Shown here: in pieces, positions 28,553 to 40,962 of the stretch
Position numbering within the stretch: position 1 is the stretch's first letter
Layout of the letters: every line of letters starts with the position of its first letter
Source of the DNA: Phycisphaerae bacterium
GTDB taxonomy: Bacteria > Planctomycetota > Phycisphaerae > Sedimentisphaerales > Anaerohalosphaeraceae
Direction of reading: 5' to 3'
DNA: 52,635 nt
Assembly: GCA_018052735.1 (NCBI GenBank)
Contig: JAGPMT010000018.1
Coordinates: 1 to 52,635, forward strand
Program-made: the position numbers and the translations under genes
The notes under the pieces: model-generated
Told to the model about the DNA's origin: nothing
The model's input: the letters and a program-made list of their open reading frames with translations, nothing else
The model's database searches: none

Positions 28553-30070
28553 ATGCTTCAATACGATAAGTGTGTTAGGGCTGTATTTGCTTTTTGTTGT
28601 ATTGGACTGTCGGGATTTGCGGTTTCTGGAGAAAGCCAAACCGATTATCTGGCGATTATGCTGTCCGGCCAGAAGATTGGTTATGCTGTGCATACCCGGA
28701 CCGAGGCCGATGACAAAGTAACCACTGCCGAACGCCTGCAAATGACTCTTGGACGGGGTGGTCAAGGCATGAAAGTAACAATGGAGGAGACCCATATTGA
28801 AACCGCTGACGGCAAGCCGTTGGGATTTGAGATGGTGATGAACACCAGCGGCATGGAGCAGAAAACTACCGCCGCAGTCAAAGACGGCAAGGCCGTCGTT
28901 ACCCGTTATGTGATGGGTCAGCCGCAGGAAATGACGATAGACTGGCCGGCCGATGCGCTGCTGAATGAGGGCCTGCGTCTGTATCAGCTCAAGCGAGGGC
29001 TGAAAGCCGGAGATGCATATGAGATAAAAATATTCCGCCCCGATATGCTGATGGCCCTGACAGCACAGATTTCCATTGGCGAAAAGACAATGATTGATTT
29101 GTTCGGCCGCATGCTGGAACTGACACAGGTGGAATCAACACTGCAGGTGGGGGGGCAGCAGATTACTGTCACCAGCTATGTGGATGAGTCGACCCGTGCG
29201 CTGAAGAGCCGGGTGCCGATGATGGGAATGGTGCTGGAATTGATTGCCTGCGACAAAAGCGTGGCTCTGCGGGAAGATGATATCGTTGATTTTCTCGACA
29301 AAATGACCATTGCCAGTCCGATTAAGCTGATGAATCTTAACAAGATTGGTTCGATTACCTATATTTTAAAACCGACAGAGGATACTAAGAAACTGGATAT
29401 CCCCACTTCATTGTCCCAGCTCGTAGAAACAATGCCCGATGGCATCGCAGTAACTGTAAGACCTAAGGTGCCCGCCGGTCCGATTGCTTTTCCGTACAAA
29501 GGCGATAATCCTGAAGCCCTTGAAGCGCTCAAGCCGACCGATTACCTGCAGTCCGATAATGAAGTGATTATCAATCTGGCGAAAAATGCCGTCAGCGGTA
29601 CAGACGATGCAGCGGTTGCAGCCCGCCGGATTGAAGCCTTTGTGGATGGATTTATTACCAAAAAAGATTTGTCGGTCGGCTATGCCTCTGCGGCTGAAGT
29701 AGCCAAGAGCCGGCAAGGCGACTGCACCGAACATGCTGTATTGGCGGCAGCGATGTGCCGGGCCGCGGGCATTCCGGCACGGGTTGTCTGCGGGGTCGTA
29801 TATGCGGACTCTTTTTTATCAAAGCAGAACATTTTCGGCGGTCATATGTGGACGGAAGTCTGGCTTGGCGACGGCTGGTACGGACTGGATGCAACTCGTT
29901 CCGGCGAAGGCGGCTTTGGGGCGGGGCATATTGCGCTGGCCTACGGCAGCGGCGACCCGATAGACTTCTTTGGGCTGGTAAATACGCTGGGTTGCTTTAA
30001 AATTACACATATTTCGGTAACCGCCAAATCAGATGCTGCCCAGCCGGAGCCTTTGTCCGTTCGAAACTAA
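28553..30070 (+). CDS. Secreted transglutaminase-like (papain-fold) protein
   Basis: 505 residues with an N-terminal signal peptide (hydrophobic core AVFAFCCIGLSGFAV). The first 250 residues form an uncharacterised beta-rich region (LAIMLSGQKIGYAV, followed by repeated KVT/ETH strands). The C-terminal part is a transglutaminase-core domain with the catalytic triad: Cys391 in QGDCTEHAVLAAAMCRAAGIPAR, His431 in GGHMWTEVWLGDGWYGLD and Asp446. Such enzymes may crosslink, amidate or hydrolyse proteins in the envelope; the substrate is unknown. The gene follows a terminator, so it has its own promoter. It is 22 bases before a small zinc-ribbon-like gene, likely co-transcribed. Confidence 0.88.
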   Translation: MLQYDKCVRAVFAFCCIGLSGFAVSGESQTDYLAIMLSGQKIGYAVHTRTEADDKVTTAERLQMTLGRGGQGMKVTMEETHIETADGKPLGFEMVMNTSGMEQKTTAAVKDGKAVVTRYVMGQPQEMTIDWPADALLNEGLRLYQLKRGLKAGDAYEIKIFRPDMLMALTAQISIGEKTMIDLFGRMLELTQVESTLQVGGQQITVTSYVDESTRALKSRVPMMGMVLELIACDKSVALREDDIVDFLDKMTIASPIKLMNLNKIGSITYILKPTEDTKKLDIPTSLSQLVETMPDGIAVTVRPKVPAGPIAFPYKGDNPEALEALKPTDYLQSDNEVIINLAKNAVSGTDDAAVAARRIEAFVDGFITKKDLSVGYASAAEVAKSRQGDCTEHAVLAAAMCRAAGIPARVVCGVVYADSFLSKQNIFGGHMWTEVWLGDGWYGLDATRSGEGGFGAGHIALAYGSGDPIDFFGLVNTLGCFKITHISVTAKSDAAQPEPLSVRN

Positions 30071-30329: not shown

Positions 30330-33300
30330 TTAATGCCACGCAGTCTGCAAGAGCCATTCCTTGGTCATATAAAGCAGGTCTGACAGGCTGACAACGGAGT
30401 CCCGCGTGAAATCAGACGGCAGGTCATAGGTGTCATTGCGCAGCCATTGGCTGGAAAAGCAGACAAAATCTGCAAGATTGACGGTGCCGTTGTTGTTAAT
30501 ATCCGTCAGCAGACTCCAGCCCAGAGGAGTTTTGCTGGCCTGTGCGGTGTTGCCATAGGCCCCCAAATTGACGCGCAGATTGGGCCGATGAACAGGTTCA
30601 TTAGACAGACTCATTCCCGGATTGCCCGCATCAATAGCCCTGCTGGTAAAGGTATCGGCAGTCCAGCTGGACGTTAATGGATTCCATCGGCCGGCCTGAG
30701 ATTGCAGGTGATAATCGCCGCTGCCGGCAAAAAGCGGATTGACAGCGATGATTCCCCAGCCCCAGTTGAGTGTGCAGCCGGAACCGATGCTGACGTCGCT
30801 GGTGCCGCCTTCGATATCACAGTAGGAGACATCCAGCTGGGAAGGACCAGATGCGGTATTCATCATAATCTGCCAGCCTGTGTTGTTCCACAAGATGCTG
30901 TTGGCCAGCAAGGCGGAGCTGCCGTTACCGCAGAAAACCGCGCCGATAGAGGGGCTGTCGGCGATGGTGTTGTAAATCAGTTTGCAGGCGGTACTGCTGG
31001 AGGTAACAACGGCTCCATACTGATTGACGCCGGTAATGCAGTTGTTGAGCATCTTCCCGTAGTTGACACCCCAGAAGCGGATGCCCGCAGCAGCATTGTC
31101 AAGGCGGTTGTTGAGCACCTGAATATTCTCTCCGTCGCGGCCGTCTATCAGAATAAAGTAATTTTTAACCGTTAGATTCTTGATGGTTACATTGTCGTAT
31201 CCGTTGCTGATGATGCCGTATCCGGTGTCGGCCGATGGGCCGATTAAAACGGCGCCGTTTCCGTCCAGTGTGATTCCGCCGGCCCCGAAGCGCACAATCC
31301 CCAGCGTGCCCGCATCGGTGATATTGTAAGTTTCCGGGCAAACAGTCGTATTGGCTGTAATGACCAGCTCATCTTCCAGCCGCCGGCAGCCGCTGCACAT
31401 TGTATCGCAGCCGTAAACCTGGCCAATGTCGGCATAGTTGTATACGGAATCGCAGATATTGTTGTTGCCAGTTGTGGTGCCGATGGCCTCAGAGGCGATA
31501 TAAAAATCCTGATAAACGGATGAACAGACTGTATTGCCCGTAAATTCATTGCCTATGCTGCCGGAAATGAATATGCCGCGGTTGTTCATACTAAAGAAAT
31601 TGCCGGTAAAATCGTTGGAATTGGATCCGCCGATAGCATAGACACCGTAGCTTCCTGAACGGGTTACCGTGTTGCCGATATATGTGTTCAGGGTCGAGCC
31701 GTTCAGATAAAAGCCGTAGTAGGTCGAATTGTTGATGGTGTTGTTCTGAATGCTGTTATTGTGGGAGGAATGCAGCTGAATGCCGGAGCCGGTGTTATTG
31801 TCCATTGCATTGCCGGTAATGCTGCAGGTATCCGAATTAAGCAGCAGGATATCCACAGTTTCAGTATTGCCGAACACATTATTCTGAATGGCGGTTCCGT
31901 CGGAGTTGTTGACATAGACACCCCGCTCATTAAAGCCTAATGTATTGCTGCGGATAACAGTTCCCGATGAGTTGGAAATAGAAATAGCAGTATCCGTTTC
32001 GCTGTCTTCTGTTTCCGCTGTATTATACAGATGGCTTTTTTCAACGACTGTATTGGTAGAATTTGCAATATAGACGCCGTAATCAATATTGTACCAGATA
32101 TCCGTGTTGTTAGGGATGGTGGAGGTAATGGTGGTATTGGCCGCGTTAGCAATGTAAAAACCGTCGACGTTGGACATAGCATCGCAATCGGTAAAGGTGT
32201 TGCCGGTGCTGTCGGTGATATGGAATCCGTAGGCCTTGTTGGAGTTTGCTCTGTCGCCGGTGAAGGTGTTGCTGCTGGTATTGATGCCCGCACCGCTCCA
32301 GCTGTTGCCGTATAGGTAATTGATTTCAAAGGTATTATTGCCGCCCGAACCGCTGATGCCCTCTTGGGGCATAATCTGCAAGCCATGCCAGCCGTTGGAT
32401 GTAAAATCGTTGTCAATGACCTCGGCATATTTTGAGTTGTAGAGATATAAGCCGTTGTAGCTGTTGGAATGGACATTGTTTTGATTGATATCGGTCCACC
32501 AGGAATTATTTAAGGAAATACCGTGGCCGGTATTGGAATAAACAGTGTTGTATTCAAGCTTGTTGTAGTCGGCTGCTCCGTAAAGATAGATGCCTGTACC
32601 GAACTCGCGTATGGTGCAGTTTTTGATGGTGACATTGTCATAACCGTTGTTCACTATCCCGATACCGGTTCCGTTGCCGTCGATAAGATGTCCCTGACAG
32701 TCAATAGTCAGATCGTTGTCACCGACAATCAATCCATTGCCGGCACAGTAGAGATTGCGGCTTAGCAAGACGTCGCCGGTTACAGTATCACCGCAGTCCG
32801 GTTCGCGTTTCAGCAGGGGCTTGGCTTTCAGTGCAGTATCGCCATAGAAGCGGGTGCAGTCGCCGCTGGCATTGCCTACGCAGGCCGGATAGGCAGCATT
32901 GGCAGCATTGAAAGCCTGACGAATGGTATCACCGGCGTTCATCCTTTCAAACAGCTTGTTTTGCCAAGCAATGGAATTGCTCCAGCAGGTCTCGCAGTAA
33001 GTGGCATCCATATGGCAGTATCCGACAGCCACAGTATCATTGGTGCTGCCTTTGGAAAACTCATAGGCAAAGGTGTTGTCGCCGGTATTGCACAGACCTT
33101 CGCAGCTTCCCACAAAGGTGAACCGCATTTTGCTGTAGGCGGTAATCCAGGTTTCGATGTCGCTGGCATAAGTGTTTTCATAAAAATTGCCGTTGCTCTG
33201 ACAGCCGCTGGAAAAATAAGTGCTGCCGCCGTGGGCCAGTTCGTAAAACAGTGCAATGGAGGAGCTTTGGATATGGCTTTGAATGTTTGCCCGTGAGGGC

Positions 33301-34616
33301 CACGTGATGCGGTCGGTTGAATAGCCCATGGTGTTGAACCAGTCGCGGGCGCTGTCAGCCCATTCATTCCAGTTTCCGCTGCAGGGATTGTAATCGGTGG
33401 GTCCGGTCATCGAATAGGCAGTAGCCGGCGGGGCAATTCCAAAGCCCAGTTCCTGGCCGGTAACGGCATCAATCACAATCAGTTCAAGACCTCCTTCCCC
33501 AAGGTTTCGAACAACCCAACAGGGATTGGATGGTATGGGATCCAGCGGAAAGATATCCGAATCCGGCGAAATATATACTAAACGGGCGCCGTCGGGATGT
33601 TGGACTTTGGCCATTGCTTCGTGAATAGAGATAATCGGCGGCAGGGTATCGGGAAGATCGCTGCGCCAGTGCCGGATGGTATTTTTATGCTCGCTGGTCT
33701 GGCGGTCAAAATGATATACAATCTGGTCTTTTTCAACCTCGGCTTGACCGATATAACGCTGGGAATGAAAAACCAGCAGGTCGCCGATTTCCAAGCCCCG
33801 GAAGCGGTGGGGCTGGGGTTCTTTGATCTTCAGCAGGAGCTCATTTTTAACTGTTTCGGATACATCTCGATAGAGTTCGGCAGCAGGCGGCTGCTCGGAC
33901 TGGTGCAGGCGCGTTTGCTGAGCCGTTCGCTGGTGCATCTCCTGCCGTTCCTGTTCGGTTTTGGGATTGGGATCATATACGCCGTCCGGCGAGCAGCGGA
34001 CGCCTAAGAATTCAAACTGCAGATCCTTAAACACCCCAATATCTGTCAGATTTTTGATGCGTTCTCCATTCCATACATAAGCAGGGCTGCCGTCATAGAT
34101 TTTGTATGTTTGGGTGGTAACAGCATACTCACGTTCAATCAGTTCATCCCGAAGCAGTTCGATAGCTGTCTGAATATGCTCAATTTCCGCTTGAGTCAGA
34201 CCGACTCCGGCAGCCAATTCCTGCCACGGAGCACGGCTGCCGATTCGTGCCAGCAGATACAGGTGAAAATATTCCGGTGCAAGGTCGCGAATCATCATCT
34301 GGACGAGATTTTCCTGGACCTCTTTCTCGCCATGCAGACAGGTATAGACAATAGTGCCATCTTGGATAGTTTTATAGAAAATATAATGTATCTCGATTTC
34401 AAATGACTGGCCGGCCGGCATGGCATTGAGATAATTCAGAAGCCCCGCCTCTGCTGCCTGCGCAAACGGACAGTAGCTCATTACGAAGACATCCAGATGA
34501 TTATGCTGGGGTAAAACGGCCGTTGTCTGTTCCGGCTCGAGGTCCAAACCGAACGAAAGGCTGATTAAAAGAACGGTGAAAATAAAACCGCTGCGAATAG
34601 CTTTGGACGCTGCCAT
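30330..34616 (-). CDS. Giant exported protein: thioredoxin-like, caspase-like, beta-helix, dockerin
   Basis: 1428 residues; ATG 34616 (AAGGAG upstream) gives a signal peptide (SGFIFTVLLISLSFG). A thioredoxin/GILT-like domain (about 35-215) has DVFVMSYCPFAQA, TCLHGEKEVQENL and SPAYVWNGERI, but the second active-site cysteine is replaced (CPFA). A clan CD (caspase/gingipain-like) unit follows: His462 in FYELAHGGS and Cys505 in FVGSCEGLC. Residues about 590-1280 are a right-handed parallel beta-helix of NosD/CASH repeats (N-rich, NxTIxNxT, GIYLYGAADYNKL...). The tail has two dockerin-like units (LTDINNNGTVNLADFVCFSSQWL and a second with LYMTKEWL). It is probably a surface protein binding or processing polysaccharide or protein. 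It converges with the preceding gene. Confidence 0.8.
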   Translation of the reverse strand: MAASKAIRSGFIFTVLLISLSFGLDLEPEQTTAVLPQHNHLDVFVMSYCPFAQAAEAGLLNYLNAMPAGQSFEIEIHYIFYKTIQDGTIVYTCLHGEKEVQENLVQMMIRDLAPEYFHLYLLARIGSRAPWQELAAGVGLTQAEIEHIQTAIELLRDELIEREYAVTTQTYKIYDGSPAYVWNGERIKNLTDIGVFKDLQFEFLGVRCSPDGVYDPNPKTEQERQEMHQRTAQQTRLHQSEQPPAAELYRDVSETVKNELLLKIKEPQPHRFRGLEIGDLLVFHSQRYIGQAEVEKDQIVYHFDRQTSEHKNTIRHWRSDLPDTLPPIISIHEAMAKVQHPDGARLVYISPDSDIFPLDPIPSNPCWVVRNLGEGGLELIVIDAVTGQELGFGIAPPATAYSMTGPTDYNPCSGNWNEWADSARDWFNTMGYSTDRITWPSRANIQSHIQSSSIALFYELAHGGSTYFSSGCQSNGNFYENTYASDIETWITAYSKMRFTFVGSCEGLCNTGDNTFAYEFSKGSTNDTVAVGYCHMDATYCETCWSNSIAWQNKLFERMNAGDTIRQAFNAANAAYPACVGNASGDCTRFYGDTALKAKPLLKREPDCGDTVTGDVLLSRNLYCAGNGLIVGDNDLTIDCQGHLIDGNGTGIGIVNNGYDNVTIKNCTIREFGTGIYLYGAADYNKLEYNTVYSNTGHGISLNNSWWTDINQNNVHSNSYNGLYLYNSKYAEVIDNDFTSNGWHGLQIMPQEGISGSGGNNTFEINYLYGNSWSGAGINTSSNTFTGDRANSNKAYGFHITDSTGNTFTDCDAMSNVDGFYIANAANTTITSTIPNNTDIWYNIDYGVYIANSTNTVVEKSHLYNTAETEDSETDTAISISNSSGTVIRSNTLGFNERGVYVNNSDGTAIQNNVFGNTETVDILLLNSDTCSITGNAMDNNTGSGIQLHSSHNNSIQNNTINNSTYYGFYLNGSTLNTYIGNTVTRSGSYGVYAIGGSNSNDFTGNFFSMNNRGIFISGSIGNEFTGNTVCSSVYQDFYIASEAIGTTTGNNNICDSVYNYADIGQVYGCDTMCSGCRRLEDELVITANTTVCPETYNITDAGTLGIVRFGAGGITLDGNGAVLIGPSADTGYGIISNGYDNVTIKNLTVKNYFILIDGRDGENIQVLNNRLDNAAAGIRFWGVNYGKMLNNCITGVNQYGAVVTSSSTACKLIYNTIADSPSIGAVFCGNGSSALLANSILWNNTGWQIMMNTASGPSQLDVSYCDIEGGTSDVSIGSGCTLNWGWGIIAVNPLFAGSGDYHLQSQAGRWNPLTSSWTADTFTSRAIDAGNPGMSLSNEPVHRPNLRVNLGAYGNTAQASKTPLGWSLLTDINNNGTVNLADFVCFSSQWLRNDTYDLPSDFTRDSVVSLSDLLYMTKEWLLQTAWH

Positions 34617-34657
34617 AATCGGACTCCTTGCAAAGAAACAACCCTCTCTCTTCTTTT

Positions 34658-34673
34658 GTACCCAAATAGGTAC
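34658..34673. promoter_or_regulatory. Palindrome upstream of the giant exported protein gene
   Basis: GTACCCAAATAGGTAC, a near-perfect 16-base inverted repeat, lies 42 bases upstream of the start of the minus-strand giant gene. It could be an operator or a hairpin in the leader. No protein is assigned. Confidence 0.35.
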
Positions 34674-34846
34674 ACAGTATTGCATTATGTGAAGCTTTTA
34701 CTATTTTACCACTTAAGCAGGATTAAAATGAAATTTTTAAAAATATTTGTATGAAGATTGTATAGCGTCACAAGGAAAATATATTGTTTAGCATCCCTTC
34801 ATTCGTTTTAAGCGTATTAAAAAAAGGAGCGGAAGATTATTTTTTA

Positions 34847-34869
34847 GTTCAAAATCTATTATTTTGAAC
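34847..34869. promoter_or_regulatory. Perfect 9-bp inverted repeat in the divergent intergenic region
   Basis: GTTCAAAAT-CTATT-ATTTTGAAC lies in the A+T-rich 454-base gap between the two divergent giant genes. It has the size and symmetry of a repressor site. Nothing else in the gap is recognised except the promoter at 34987. Confidence 0.4.
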
Positions 34870-34986
34870 ATTTTAATGCGAGGAAACACAAGGAATTGGA
34901 TGTTTATTTGCTGGAATTATCCCCAAGTTAATTGTTACAAGTTATTCATAAAGAAGAATCCTAAAAATTGTCAATCAAATGCTCTC

Positions 34987-35015
34987 TTGAAATATACAAG
35001 CTGACTTGGTATAAT
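34987..35015 (+). promoter_or_regulatory. Sigma-70-type promoter of the CotH/LamG protein gene
   Basis: TTGAAA (34987-34992), a 17-base spacer and a perfect TATAAT (35010-35015). The predicted start is near 35022, about 49 bases before ATG 35071. Confidence 0.65.
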
Positions 35016-35070
35016 ACTTCCGTTGTCAATAATTAATAAATCAGAATGCATAAAATGGGGTTGGGGCATC

Positions 35071-38000
35071 ATGCGGAAAAGTTTTCTCGATATAGCTTAT
35101 CTTGTATTAATTTTAGCTATTATTATCGGCTCAGCGCTTGGAGATTGTCCTAGCGGCGATATTACAGGCGACTGTATTGTCGACATAGATGACCTTTTTG
35201 TAGCTGCCGAAAATTGGCTGTCCAGCCAAATGCCCCTGCATTCTGGACTTATAGCACATTGGGGATTTGATGAACAGGCAGGAGAAACGGCGGCGGATTC
35301 AGCAGGGGGGCATACGGGACAGCTGTATGGCGAACCACAATGGGTACGCGATGAGGAGTTTCAGCGAGAGGCGCTGATTTTTGACGGCGTGGATGATTAT
35401 ATTGAAGTGCCGGACTACAAAGGCATTGCTGGTACAGCCAGCCGCACGTGTACCGCCTGGATTAAGACCAGCAAGACAAATTCTCACATTATCAATTGGG
35501 GTTTACAGTCACAGGAAGGGGGAATGTGGGCTGTTTTAGTCGGCGATACCGGCGCGCTTCGGGTACAAGTGAGCAACGGATATATTTACGGAGTTACCAA
35601 TATAGCTGACGGTGAGTGGCATCATATAGCGGTTGTGCTTCAAGGTGATGGTTCGCCCGATATCAGCGAAGCAATGCTGTTTGTTGATGGACTCAGTGAA
35701 ACCTCCATCGGCGGGGTTTTGGCCAAGCCGGTTAACACAGTCACTTCGGAAAACGTCAAGATAGGGGTGAATATCCTGAAAACTGCGTATCTGCAAGGCA
35801 GGCTTGATGAGGTGCAGATTTACAATCAGGCATTGAGGGAAGATGAGATTCTGCGCCTTTATCAAACGGGAAATGCCTTGACCCACAACCCGGATTTTAC
35901 AGGAGACGGCCGCGTGGATACAGAGGATTTCATCCCGCTGTCTGACCAGTGGCTTCGGGCTGAACCGGCTGTTATTATCAGCGAGTTTCTGGCTTCCAAT
36001 GATGCCGCTAATCCGCCGGACATTTCACAGGGACAAATACGCGACGGCAACGGGGAATCATCGGACTGGATTGAACTGTATAATCAAACCGATTTTCCGA
36101 TTGCTCTGGGCGGGTGGGGACTGACCGACAATGCCGGCAATCCTCTTATATGGCAGTTTCCATCTGGAACGGTATTAAGCGGACACAGTTATTTAATTGT
36201 ATTTGCTTCTGGAAAAGAGCAGAGCGATTATCCAAGCAATTATCCCTATGTGGACCCGCAGGGCTTCCTGCATACCAATTTTAAATTATCCGCTGACGGC
36301 GAATATCTGGCTCTAACCCGGCCGGACGGGACCGTTGAACATGCTTATGATTCGGTGCTCAACACAGTTTCGGGCCATTATGGATTTCCCCCTCAGGAGA
36401 AAAATATTTCTTACGGGATGCTTCATAATGAAGAATACTTTTTTGCTTTGCCATCGCCGGGACAATCCAACAGGAAGTCATTTTTGGGTTTTGTGGAGGC
36501 ACCAGAGTTCAGCCACGAGCGGGGTTTTTACGAAACTTCTTTTTGGCTGACGCTCAATACAAGCACGCCCGATGCGGTGATTCGCTATACCACCAACGGC
36601 ACAGATCCGACGCTTTCCAACGGGACAACCTATACCGGGCCTATTGCCGTCAGCGTTTCGACCAGTCCCGTCGGCCGCTGCATACGGGCGGCGGCATTCA
36701 AGCCTGGTTATCAAGCCAGTCCCATCAAAACCCGTACTTATCTAATGAAGGCCACCGAGTATATGAAAGGCCTGCCGGCAGTATGTTTGTCGGGCAGCCC
36801 GACACAGGTTTTTTATAACCCCAACGGCATTATGGCAATTGTCGGAGGAACATGGGTTAATGGTGTTTGGCAGCAGGTTAACTCTACGGATTACAATAAT
36901 GTACTCGGACACGGGATGGACTATGAGAGGCCTGTATCGATGGAATATATTCGAAGAACTGACGGGACGGAGTTTCAGGAGGATTGCGGCATTCGTGTCC
37001 ACGGCAGCGCCTGGATGCGTCCCCGTTATACGATTCCATCGGTTTCGGATGCCTGGTATGGAACCAGCAAATACAGTCTTCGCCTTTATTTCCGCAGCCG
37101 CTATGGAGACAATACATTCGCACATCCGATTCTGGAACAATTTCCTGAAGTGGATGAAATGGATACCTTTGTGCTCCGCGCCGGCCACAACGACCAGACC
37201 AATCCATTTGTTCGCGATGAAATGATTCGCCGGCTCCAGTATCAGATGGGCAATCAGACGGCGCGAGGGACATTTGTCAACCTTTACATCAACGGTGTGT
37301 ACAAAGGGTACTATAACCTCTGCGAGCGGATCAACGAAGATTATTGCCAAAAATGGTTCAACAGCGATAAGCCGTGGGATGTCGTCGGCTGGGTGGCGAC
37401 AGGCTATAGTTTTTATCTGGAAGCCCGCGACGGCGATACGAAGGCATTTGAAGATTTTATTAATTATGCAAAAAATAACAACTTGGCAAATCCCCTGTAT
37501 TATGCACAAGTTGAGCAGCAGATGGATATGCCGGCGTTTGTGGATTATATTATCGTGCAGACGTGGGGCGGCAACTGGGACTGGCCGCAGAATAACTGGA
37601 CGGCGGCAGCCGAACGTTCAGCTGCCCGCAAATGGCGATTCTTTGTCTGGGATGCAGAGGGATGCATGGACGGCGATACCAGCCGGAACCGCTTCAGTAA
37701 TTTGAATACGGATAACTCCCCTCTTTCGGTCTTGTATCGAGCTCTGAGCGTCAATCAGGATTTTAAGATTTTGTTTGCCGACCGTCTGCAGAAGCATTTT
37801 CTGGATGCCGGCGGGGCGATGACTCAAGCGAATCTCAAAGCCCTGTTCTGGCAGCTGGCCGGCGAGGTCAAAGGCGTTATACCCGATATTTCAACCTACA
37901 TTCCCAATACCTATATTCCTGTACGGGAAAGCATCTATTTTACACAATGCAGAAACCAAGATTTGTTTAAGTTTGCCGCGCCGCGTGTCTTTTTGTATGG

Positions 38001-40962
38001 CCGTGAGATACAGAAGGATTATGCCTTGCCCGGTGCGCAAATAACAATGCAAAATGCCGATGGCGTTTCCGGCGATATCTATTATACTCTGGACGGGAAA
38101 GACCCGCGGTTGACGCTGGTAGAACGTGCTAACACCGCCACAACGACGCTGGTGGCTGAAAATGCCTCCAAGCGGGTTTTGGTTCCCACAAAGGATATCG
38201 GAACGACATGGACACAGGTCAATTACGATGATTCATTGTGGAATGATGGCCTTCCGGCAGACAATTCTAAAACCGGCGGCGTCGGCTATGAAAGAAATCC
38301 CGGCGAGGCGACCAGCACTTTGCCATATGTCAGCTACAATGTTGAAAGCAAGATGTACAACAATTACACCTCGGCATATGTTCGCATACCCTTTATAGTC
38401 GATGCAGGCCAAATGCAGAGCTGGAATTATCTGAGTCTGAAAATGCGCTATGATGACGGTTTCGTTGCTTATATCAACGGTACGGAGGTCTGCCGGGTCG
38501 GCATCAGCGGCACGCCGGCGTGGAATTCGACAGCACCTTCACACGAAAACAGCTCGCTGGAGACATTTATCATCAGCAATTATCTGTATCTTCTTCAGCC
38601 GGGATTGAATATTCTGGCTATTCACGGAGCGAATTACTCCAAAAACAGCAGTGATTTTCTTGTATCTGCCATTCTTGAGGCAGGTTATGATTCAGCCAAC
38701 GGCATTGCTCCTTCGGCGCAGAAATATACTGGGCCTATCAGCCTGTCCAAAAGTGTGCATATCAAAGCCCGAACGCTCAGCGGGACACAATGGGGCGCAC
38801 TGCGGGAAGCTTTTGTGTCTGTGGGAACCATCAGCGACAATTTGCGCATCTCGGAATTTTTGTATAATCCAGATGGTGATCCAAACGAGGAATTTATCGA
38901 ACTGACCAATATCGGCACAACTCCTTTGAACCTCAATCAGGTCAGCTTTACCAAAGGAATTCAATATACCTTTGGCGATACTGTTATTAATCCCGGTCAA
39001 TATCTGCTGCTGGCTGCCGACAAGACGGTTTTTGAAAACCGCTATGGAACCGGTCTTCCTGTTGTCGGCGAGTATGCCGGTAAGCTGGACAATGCAGGGG
39101 AGACCATTCAAATCAGTGATATACTGGGCAATCCTATCCAGACGGTTAATTATAAAGACAGCTGGTATGAAATTGCCGACAGCGACGGTTTTTCGCTGAC
39201 GGCAGTTGATCCAGCGTATGAAATACCCATTTCAAGTGACGATCTGGCTGCCCATTGGAAATTTGATGAAACTACGGGCACTACCGTCTATGATATGGCA
39301 GGGCTTCATCATGGGACGATTTACAATATGCAGGATACCGCACGGGTTTATGGCGCCAAAGAAAATGCCCTGCTTTTTGATGGGACCAATGATTACATTG
39401 CTGTCGGCGGCTATAAAGGTATCAGCGGCTCCGCCAGCCGGACATGTACAGCATGGATCAGAACCGGTACGGTTATGTCTCAAATAATCAGCTGGGGTGA
39501 GCTCCAAACAGGCCGCAAATGGGCTGTACGCGTCAACGATGACGGTACGCTGCGGGCCGAAGTGCAGGAGGGATATATTTACGGAACGACCCCGGTAGCA
39601 GATAACCAATGGCACCATGTGGCAGTCGTACTGATCGATGACGGTTCGCCGGACATCAGCGAGGCAATTCTTTACGTCGATGGAAAAGCTGAGACGACTT
39701 TCGGCGGTATTCAGGCCCGTGCAGTTAATACCGCCACTGTCAGTGATGTTCTTATCGGAGTCAATCTGAACGGGACGGCGTTCTTCCAAGGTCTTATGGA
39801 TGACCTGCGGATATACAGCCGGGCGTTGACAGCTGACGAGATAGCTGCAATGATAGCCCAGGTAAACTGGGACAGCAAGGACCTCTGGCGCCCGAGTGCA
39901 GTTCGGGGCGGAACGCCCGGACGCGATGAAACACCAACCGAACGAGTGCCGCTACCGGGGGCGATTGTCATCAATGAGCTGCTGGCTCACTCCCATGCCG
40001 GCCTGCCCGACTGGATAGAATTATACAATACGACAAATCAGGCTATTGACATCAGCGGCTGGTTTTTGTCTGACAGCTTCAGCAGCCAAACGAATCGCAA
40101 GAAATACCGGATACCCGATGGGACTATCCTGACTCCGGCTAATCCGTACTATGTGCTGGAAGAGACTGCGTTTAACAATATCTCCGATGCCGGCTGCCGC
40201 ATTCCCTTTGCCCTGAGCGAAGGCGGCGACACGCTGTATCTCCAATCGGCCAATGGAGAAGAACTAACCGGCTACTTCACAAAAGAAGAATTCGGGGCGA
40301 CCGCATCCGGTGTTACGCTGGGGCGTTTTCAGAAGAGCACCGGGACGTGGAACTTCGTCCCCATGAGTGTTCCCACCAAAGGTGCAGATAATGCTTACCC
40401 GCTGGTTGGTCCGGTTATCATAACGGAGATTATGTATAACCCGGGGCCAAATCCCATTGATCAAGACTATGAATTTCTGGAACTGATGAATATCAGCAGT
40501 CAGCCCGTCCGTACGGCCAGTTATGTGAGTACGTATACCAGTCCAGACATACATATAGAAGAGTGGATTCCATGGCGATTTACAAACGGCATCGAATTTG
40601 AATTTCCTTTGGACCTTCAGCTGGAGCCGGGCCAGCGGATTCTTCTTGTTAAAAAGCTTAGCAGTTTTAACAGCCGCTATACCGGTGTTCCGGCAGGAAC
40701 CGTCATTTTTCAATGGACCAGCGGCAGCTTGGCTAATGAAGGCGAAACCCTCCAGCTGGCAATGGCCGGCGATCAGGAATACCAGAAGGAACGGTATTAT
40801 ATACGTGAAGATCGAGTCAATTATGATGACCAATCACCATGGCCGACTCAGGCAAATGGAACAGGTCTGTCTCTGACTCATCTGCGGCCAATGGAAACTG
40901 GAAATAATTACACAAATGATCCCGTCCATTGGAAAGCTCTAAACCCCACTCCAGGCTGGTAG
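35071..40962 (+). CDS. Giant CotH / LamG / lamin-tail secreted protein with dockerin-like units
   Basis: 1963 residues; start ATG 35071 with GGGG before it and a promoter at 34987-35015. A signal peptide (SFLDIAYLVLILAIIIGSAL) is followed at once by a dockerin-like unit (GDITGDCIVDIDD, AENWL). Then come LamG 1 (about 57-267), a second dockerin-like unit (FTGDGRVDTEDF, DQWL), lamin-tail domain 1 (ISEFLASND, DWIELYN) and a chitobiase-type Ig domain (YTTNGTDPTLSNGT). A CotH-kinase-like domain (about 620-943) has GIRVHGSAWMRPRY, NLYINGVYKGYYNLCERI and FVWDAEGCMDGD. Lamin-tail 2, LamG 2 (about 1390-1597), and lamin-tails 3 and 4 follow. CotH phosphorylates proteins in spores; here a surface role is inferred. 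The two LamG copies are close relatives, suggesting internal duplication. Confidence 0.85.
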   Translation: MRKSFLDIAYLVLILAIIIGSALGDCPSGDITGDCIVDIDDLFVAAENWLSSQMPLHSGLIAHWGFDEQAGETAADSAGGHTGQLYGEPQWVRDEEFQREALIFDGVDDYIEVPDYKGIAGTASRTCTAWIKTSKTNSHIINWGLQSQEGGMWAVLVGDTGALRVQVSNGYIYGVTNIADGEWHHIAVVLQGDGSPDISEAMLFVDGLSETSIGGVLAKPVNTVTSENVKIGVNILKTAYLQGRLDEVQIYNQALREDEILRLYQTGNALTHNPDFTGDGRVDTEDFIPLSDQWLRAEPAVIISEFLASNDAANPPDISQGQIRDGNGESSDWIELYNQTDFPIALGGWGLTDNAGNPLIWQFPSGTVLSGHSYLIVFASGKEQSDYPSNYPYVDPQGFLHTNFKLSADGEYLALTRPDGTVEHAYDSVLNTVSGHYGFPPQEKNISYGMLHNEEYFFALPSPGQSNRKSFLGFVEAPEFSHERGFYETSFWLTLNTSTPDAVIRYTTNGTDPTLSNGTTYTGPIAVSVSTSPVGRCIRAAAFKPGYQASPIKTRTYLMKATEYMKGLPAVCLSGSPTQVFYNPNGIMAIVGGTWVNGVWQQVNSTDYNNVLGHGMDYERPVSMEYIRRTDGTEFQEDCGIRVHGSAWMRPRYTIPSVSDAWYGTSKYSLRLYFRSRYGDNTFAHPILEQFPEVDEMDTFVLRAGHNDQTNPFVRDEMIRRLQYQMGNQTARGTFVNLYINGVYKGYYNLCERINEDYCQKWFNSDKPWDVVGWVATGYSFYLEARDGDTKAFEDFINYAKNNNLANPLYYAQVEQQMDMPAFVDYIIVQTWGGNWDWPQNNWTAAAERSAARKWRFFVWDAEGCMDGDTSRNRFSNLNTDNSPLSVLYRALSVNQDFKILFADRLQKHFLDAGGAMTQANLKALFWQLAGEVKGVIPDISTYIPNTYIPVRESIYFTQCRNQDLFKFAAPRVFLYGREIQKDYALPGAQITMQNADGVSGDIYYTLDGKDPRLTLVERANTATTTLVAENASKRVLVPTKDIGTTWTQVNYDDSLWNDGLPADNSKTGGVGYERNPGEATSTLPYVSYNVESKMYNNYTSAYVRIPFIVDAGQMQSWNYLSLKMRYDDGFVAYINGTEVCRVGISGTPAWNSTAPSHENSSLETFIISNYLYLLQPGLNILAIHGANYSKNSSDFLVSAILEAGYDSANGIAPSAQKYTGPISLSKSVHIKARTLSGTQWGALREAFVSVGTISDNLRISEFLYNPDGDPNEEFIELTNIGTTPLNLNQVSFTKGIQYTFGDTVINPGQYLLLAADKTVFENRYGTGLPVVGEYAGKLDNAGETIQISDILGNPIQTVNYKDSWYEIADSDGFSLTAVDPAYEIPISSDDLAAHWKFDETTGTTVYDMAGLHHGTIYNMQDTARVYGAKENALLFDGTNDYIAVGGYKGISGSASRTCTAWIRTGTVMSQIISWGELQTGRKWAVRVNDDGTLRAEVQEGYIYGTTPVADNQWHHVAVVLIDDGSPDISEAILYVDGKAETTFGGIQARAVNTATVSDVLIGVNLNGTAFFQGLMDDLRIYSRALTADEIAAMIAQVNWDSKDLWRPSAVRGGTPGRDETPTERVPLPGAIVINELLAHSHAGLPDWIELYNTTNQAIDISGWFLSDSFSSQTNRKKYRIPDGTILTPANPYYVLEETAFNNISDAGCRIPFALSEGGDTLYLQSANGEELTGYFTKEEFGATASGVTLGRFQKSTGTWNFVPMSVPTKGADNAYPLVGPVIITEIMYNPGPNPIDQDYEFLELMNISSQPVRTASYVSTYTSPDIHIEEWIPWRFTNGIEFEFPLDLQLEPGQRILLVKKLSSFNSRYTGVPAGTVIFQWTSGSLANEGETLQLAMAGDQEYQKERYYIREDRVNYDDQSPWPTQANGTGLSLTHLRPMETGNNYTNDPVHWKALNPTPGW

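Follow-up and report, generated by a model that had tools for sequence, protein, structure and literature searches.

What kind of protein is encoded by a long multidomain gene of a planctomycete, and could that protein act as a protease outside the cell? The gene lies on the reverse strand of a 52,635-nucleotide stretch (hereafter the window) of contig JAGPMT010000018.1 from the Phycisphaerae bacterium assembly GCA_018052735.1 (order Sedimentisphaerales). An initial annotation, made from the letters alone, had proposed that the product is a surface protease combining thioredoxin-like, caspase-like, beta-helix, and dockerin modules. We consider, with a probability of roughly 0.7, that the protein is an exported clan CD-fold cysteine endopeptidase, made as a precursor whose PepSY/YpeB-like domain both assists folding and inhibits the protease, and retained outside the cell through a beta-helix/dockerin tail. 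The computed features on which this reading draws are a signal peptide, both folds, an invariant dyad at the clan CD positions, a PepSY-like domain always found beside the protease, swappable C-terminal modules, and the adjacency of peptidase genes in relatives. The modules are arranged in the order signal peptide, GILT-like domain, PepSY/YpeB-like domain, caspase-fold protease, beta-helix, and dockerin. Residues are numbered here on the longest open frame of 1451 amino acids (P0001), which adds 23 to the numbers of the initial annotation, so that its His462 and Cys505 correspond to His485 and Cys528.

The structure of residues 273-627 was modelled with AlphaFold (AF2) from 38 sequences, with a mean predicted local distance difference test (pLDDT) score of 93.9. 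The order of strands and helices in the protease model was that of caspases, and the model points to an alpha/beta/alpha caspase-haemoglobinase core. Foldseek matched it to SAVED-CHAT (8tl0; E = 2e-8) and to caspases (about 1e-4). In VIA comparisons, which took in the top Foldseek chains only, so that the lack of a family among them carries no meaning, the Z scores were 16.9 for SAVED-CHAT, 14.7 for gingipain RgpB, and about 13-14 for caspases (13.9 for caspase-6). The caspase-like sheet that had been put forward as a check of the proposal, against gingipain and caspase folds, is thus adopted by the model. A His/Cys dyad placed where strands 3 and 4 end, together with a conserved Gly next to the His, defines clan CD (PMC4357240). 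In the model, the predicted dyad of His485 and Cys528 takes these positions, with strand 205-211 followed by His213 and strand 250-253 followed by Cys256 in model numbering, as the annotation of this pair in a clan CD context had anticipated. The family motifs around the dyad were FYELAHGG and FxGSCxGxC, and His485, Gly486, Ser527, and Cys528 were invariant in all aligned sequences from both bacteria and archaea; conservation of the Cys, which had been named as a test, thus held in 37 of 37 aligned sequences. The aligned core of the catalytic region contains ten Cys. Because C532 and C557 are jointly missing in three members, they are likely to form a disulfide, and C564 and C610 are never missing. 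C528 is the sole invariant Cys left unpaired and therefore fits a nucleophile. By this model, the core would very probably be a caspase-like enzyme that cuts proteins, with catalysis as a prediction. The protease region had no match in Pfam or NCBIfam, the 38-row core profile matched no PDB sequence, and no viral structural relative of note was found.

Directly before the protease stands a domain that the initial annotation had overlooked. It matched the C-terminal domain of YpeB (5boi) with a Foldseek E-value of 3e-5, and PepSY was the commonest weak Pfam match in the family, detected in four of the 38 core members (best E = 0.0092). All homologues with a complete N-terminus have a hydrophobic leader, followed directly by the PepSY-like domain and then by the protease, and minimal members of about 450 amino acids (e.g., L029) consist of hardly more than this pair. 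The conserved unit of the family is therefore the PepSY-like and protease pair behind a signal peptide. PepSY domains are known from metallopeptidase precursors and YpeB, whereas here the PepSY-like domain is joined to a caspase-fold peptidase, a combination for which no published description was found in the literature searched. To our knowledge, no caspase-fold enzyme is known to be under zymogen control by a PepSY/YpeB-like domain. A free-standing PepSY-like protein, closely similar to the PepSY-like domain of the family, is encoded in Desulforhabdus directly before the family gene (L053:4924-5439); it is possibly a pro-domain or inhibitor acting in trans, or a broken copy.

The family was compared with known clan CD peptidases. 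None of the clan CD models in Pfam and NCBIfam (C11, C13, C14, C50, C80, and CHAT) matched any of the 38 members at E-values up to 1, and neither did Pfam Peptidase_C25. Alignment by hhalign to six C25 domains from neighbouring genes gave a probability of 1% over 30 columns, and membership in C25, the gingipain family, was rejected. Like gingipain R (RgpB), the present family has the make-up of a secreted clan CD cysteine peptidase with an N-terminal pro-domain, and several of its members carry C-terminal adhesion or sorting modules. Unlike in gingipain R, the candidate pro-domain is PepSY/YpeB-like: Propeptide_C25 was not detected by Pfam in the window protein or the 38 members, and the region matched YpeB/PepSY instead. 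The propeptides of gingipains inhibit their protease (PMC3677877). Among solved structures, the one closest in fold to the catalytic domain links the family to the CHAT peptidases, which work in defence inside the cell. The family differs from them in its many Cys, its signal peptide, and the lack of a CHAT match in Pfam. The family is thus clan CD-like by every feature testable yet lies outside all the sequence families tested, and we provisionally regard it as unclassified, as judged against the Pfam and NCBIfam models and the C25 profile.

Core sequences came from Planctomycetota, Eiseniibacteriota, Zixiibacteriota, Krumholzibacteriota, Auribacterota, and Thermodesulfobacteriota, together with three archaea. 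Within the order of the host, the distribution was sporadic (7/161 genomes), and in the core tree the window sequence formed a separate branch with no supported sister group. Searches of viral contigs, plasmids, and phages did not recover the core. In the archaeon Ca. Ethanoperedens, the PepSY/caspase-fold gene is present as two copies side by side (L032:4668-7092), the first of which is broken off near its end.

Gene neighbourhoods of the relatives were surveyed for four peptidase types (C25, M14, C1, and C10), and the results are given as raw counts. Seven genomes, mostly of Eisenbacteria, had the family gene in a same-strand row with a C25 gene of gingipain type and a gene for an M14 carboxypeptidase, in the order C25, M14, family gene. 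This arrangement looks like a secreted-protease operon. The genes nearly touch one another at L045:172-8646 and likewise at L022, L028, L031, L036, L040, and L048. Among the other neighbours, papain-type C1 genes were located near four family genes, C10 genes adjoined two planctomycete genes, and M14 genes were present on two cut contigs. The proposal of a caspase-like cysteine protease that is exported or at the cell surface is strongly supported by the fold, the invariant dyad, the secretion signal, and these peptidase-rich neighbourhoods, with the activity itself standing as a prediction.

The module in front of the PepSY-like domain was predicted as GILT/DsbA-like, and this assignment is borne out by its modelled fold. 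Pfam GILT matched it with an E-value of 0.0015 and 19.3 bits, below the cut-off of 22.4. The AlphaFold model, built from eight rows, had a pLDDT of 82.8, and its top solved fold was mouse GILT (6nwx; Foldseek E = 5e-6; VIA Z = 17.4 over 165 residues at 3.5 Å), ahead of the best DsbA (Z = 14.4). The model therefore suggests the GILT fold, which is DsbA-like with a helical insertion. The CXXC site and the CQHGx2ECx2Nx4C signature of GILT are replaced by CPFA and CLHGEKEVQENLVQM, respectively. The domain retains C-x-HG-x2-E-x3-N of the signature, but, unlike GILT, it has neither the second active-site Cys nor two of the signature Cys, scores below the Pfam cut-off, and is bacterial and fused to a protease. 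Across the phylum Planctomycetota, Pfam GILT gave nothing over the cut-off, whereas the front sequence itself used as a query found relatives in other Planctomycetota with E-values down to 5e-22. Most of these lie inside proteins of about 830-1340 amino acids (longest open frames) that are unrelated to the protease and have CPFC, CPGC, CPSC, or CPYC at the active site. The degenerate CPFA site noted at first is real. Some of the relatives at L080-L085 (G327, G216, G431, G487, G269, and G374) have a second, weaker match further along, and Pfam gave only weak DSBA or thioredoxin matches for these proteins. The second Cys is lost at least once elsewhere: a relative from a genome of the same class (L079) has CPYG, likewise keeping the first Cys, and its protein is at most 428 amino acids long.

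No other protease homologue found had the GILT-like front, and the domain was also missing from the 26 core-carrying genomes searched for it; a search of the order gave only a chance-level match, and the domain was not found in the viral contigs and plasmids searched. The front is probably a late, lineage-specific add-on to the protease family and, being absent from every other homologue found, is not required for the basic mechanism of the family. With a single Cys, it could at most form mixed disulfides, in an isomerase-like or thiol-binding manner. It most likely aids the folding of the Cys-rich protease domain or binds a substrate bearing thiols or disulfides; the binding or chaperoning role initially proposed for it is a possibility.

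The C-terminal half had been described as about 700 residues of NosD-type beta-helix and two dockerin-like units. The former agrees with our results: as in NosD/CASH parallel beta-helix proteins, Beta_helix and NosD repeats extend over about 700 residues, covering much of the 740 residues between the protease and the dockerin, with Beta_helix matching in eight stretches. TIGR04247 scored 65 bits against a cut-off of 300, far too low for a nitrous oxide reductase maturation protein, and an identity as the NosD maturation protein was rejected. As for the dockerin, Dockerin_1 matched the isolated tail with an E-value of 6.8e-6 and 26.6 bits, above the cut-off of 22.9; the module itself is present, but the two units are calcium-loop repeats of a single domain. 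The host genome contains 15 Dockerin_1 matches. In relatives from other phyla, the beta-helix and dockerin are replaced by FG-GAP/UnbV/FlgD_ig, CarboxypepD_reg/IPTL-CTERM, HYR/PKD, or other modules, or by almost nothing, and the back half therefore looks like an interchangeable attachment part. Glycan binding, the role initially proposed for the beta-helix, may be a function of this part in the window protein.

Features of the gene and its product. Residue numbers refer to the 1451-amino-acid frame.
Feature	Position in window	Strand	Details
Whole gene	30330..34616	-	1428 aa from ATG at 34616; Shine-Dalgarno AAGGAG at 34624-34629
Signal peptide	34548..34616	-	MAASKAIRSGFIFTVLLISLSFG; from sequence; homologues with a complete N-terminus likewise open with a hydrophobic leader
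GILT/DsbA-like thioredoxin-fold domain (predicted)	34017..34508	-	residues ~60-223; sub-threshold Pfam, sequence relatives, fold match
Active-site motif Cys-Pro-Phe-Ala (C72-A75)	34461..34472	-	first Cys retained, second gone; alignment with relatives
PepSY/YpeB-like domain, candidate pro-domain	33438..33800	-	residues ~296-416; Foldseek and weak Pfam PepSY in relatives
Caspase-haemoglobinase (clan CD) fold domain (predicted)	32814..33428	-	residues ~420-624; AlphaFold model, Foldseek, VIA
Predicted catalytic His485	33231..33233	-	in FYELAHGGS, after strand 3; invariant in 37/37 aligned and all 38 rows
Predicted catalytic Cys528	33102..33104	-	in FVGSCEGLC, after strand 4; invariant in 37/37 aligned and all 38 rows
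Right-handed parallel beta-helix region	30546..32768	-	residues ~640-1380; Beta_helix E 5.6e-57, NosD E 1.4e-42, TIGR03804 repeats
C-terminal type I dockerin	30360..30506	-	residues 1394-1442; one domain, two calcium-loop repeats; Pfam

The longest open frame extends over 30330-34685 (-), with no stop and no frame change inside. The start at 34616, as initially annotated, was preferred over 34685 because AAGGAG lies 7 nucleotides upstream of this ATG and the signal peptide follows directly. The gene is present in a single copy in its genome (2.88 Mb, 96% complete; G000). It stands alone, divergent from a CotH/lamin-tail gene (35023-40962) and convergent with a transglutaminase-like gene (28553-30070), as assigned by Pfam. 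The CotH/lamin-tail gene, on the plus strand, encodes 1979 amino acids with a CotH kinase domain, chitobiase-type repeats, two laminin-G domains, and several lamin-tail domains. Between the divergent genes, an AT-rich stretch of about 400 bases (34640-35040) has no long open reading frame and includes a promoter-like match (11/12) at 34987-35015 on the plus strand.

From these features we infer that the protein is catalytic, that its PepSY-like domain exerts zymogen control, that the beta-helix serves adhesion, and that the dockerin acts as an anchor. The protein would be exported through the Sec pathway by way of its signal peptide and would fold with disulfides outside the cytoplasm, with the PepSY-like domain serving as an inner chaperone and as a lid over the protease. 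Once this domain is removed or displaced, the His/Cys dyad would cleave proteins near the surface, where the beta-helix and dockerin would keep the protease. The GILT-like front, with its one Cys, may help disulfide shuffling in the Cys-rich protease or bind a thiol-bearing substrate. Several points weigh against this reading. Catalytic activity is known for no family member, and SAVED-CHAT, the closest solved fold, is a protein of defence inside the cell. Only the protease part is covered by the best fold match, with an identity of 13%. The PepSY-like assignment has fold similarity and weak hidden Markov model scores as its basis, and the window gene has no peptidase gene beside it, either of the C25, M14, C1, and C10 types or by Pfam. 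No cohesin (PF00963) was found in the 96%-complete host genome, where diverged partners are possible, and anchoring by the dockerin is therefore a guess.

Other explanations were weighed against the same evidence. The GILT-like Cys could be linked to one of the protease-domain Cys in a mixed disulfide and so gate protease activity or guide disulfide formation in that domain. Such redox control, which is compatible with the exported endopeptidase, would suit the Cys-rich catalytic region and the fusion of a domain with one active-site Cys in front of it, but all other homologues found do without the GILT-like domain, and we regard it only as a tentative possibility. Less probable, and on the whole unlikely, is that the caspase-fold enzyme acts as a transpeptidase or maturation enzyme on other exported proteins, like asparaginyl ligases and GPI transamidase, and not as a degradative protease. 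Clan CD folds include such enzymes, and the secreted-type peptidases encoded beside the relatives could be substrates of maturation; the highly variable C-terminal modules and the sporadic spread in the order, however, better fit an accessory exoenzyme than a maturase with a housekeeping role.

A catalytically dead scaffold, in which the caspase-like and thioredoxin folds serve binding only, appears more unlikely still. Some clan CD-fold proteins are pseudo-enzymes, and the thioredoxin site lacks one Cys, but the invariance of His485, Gly486, Ser527, and Cys528 across bacteria and archaea would be unexpected for pseudo-enzymes. That the front module results from an assembly or annotation error joining two genes is highly improbable: although it is common to no homologue, the frame is continuous, the Shine-Dalgarno sequence and signal peptide are at the front, the GC content is about 0.5 over most of the gene, and the PepSY-like part is not preceded by another leader.

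As far as was searched, the pairing of PepSY-like and caspase-fold domains as a family and the fusion with GILT are new, and the separate pieces are of known kinds. No description of the family or of the domain combination was found in the literature searched, and no other homologue found has the same combination, in line with the initial view that it was undescribed. A broader proposal, that a secreted clan CD family with a PepSY/YpeB-like zymogen pro-domain occurs in at least six phyla of bacteria and two of archaea and that one planctomycete gained a GILT-like module catalysing or gating its own disulfide-dependent maturation, is rather speculative, and we regard it as doubtful.

Gingipains and clostripain are the main known cases of extracellular proteases with a caspase fold. 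If the exported endopeptidase reading is true, a broad family in uncultured bacteria and archaea that lacks a Pfam or NCBIfam model, and whose genes often lie beside those of secreted-type proteases, would enlarge the set of enzymes to which protein breakdown in their habitats is ascribed. The neighbouring PepSY-like domain would represent a new way of silencing a caspase-type enzyme up to its export. The fusion with GILT offers a natural test of whether a protease can incorporate a thiol module.

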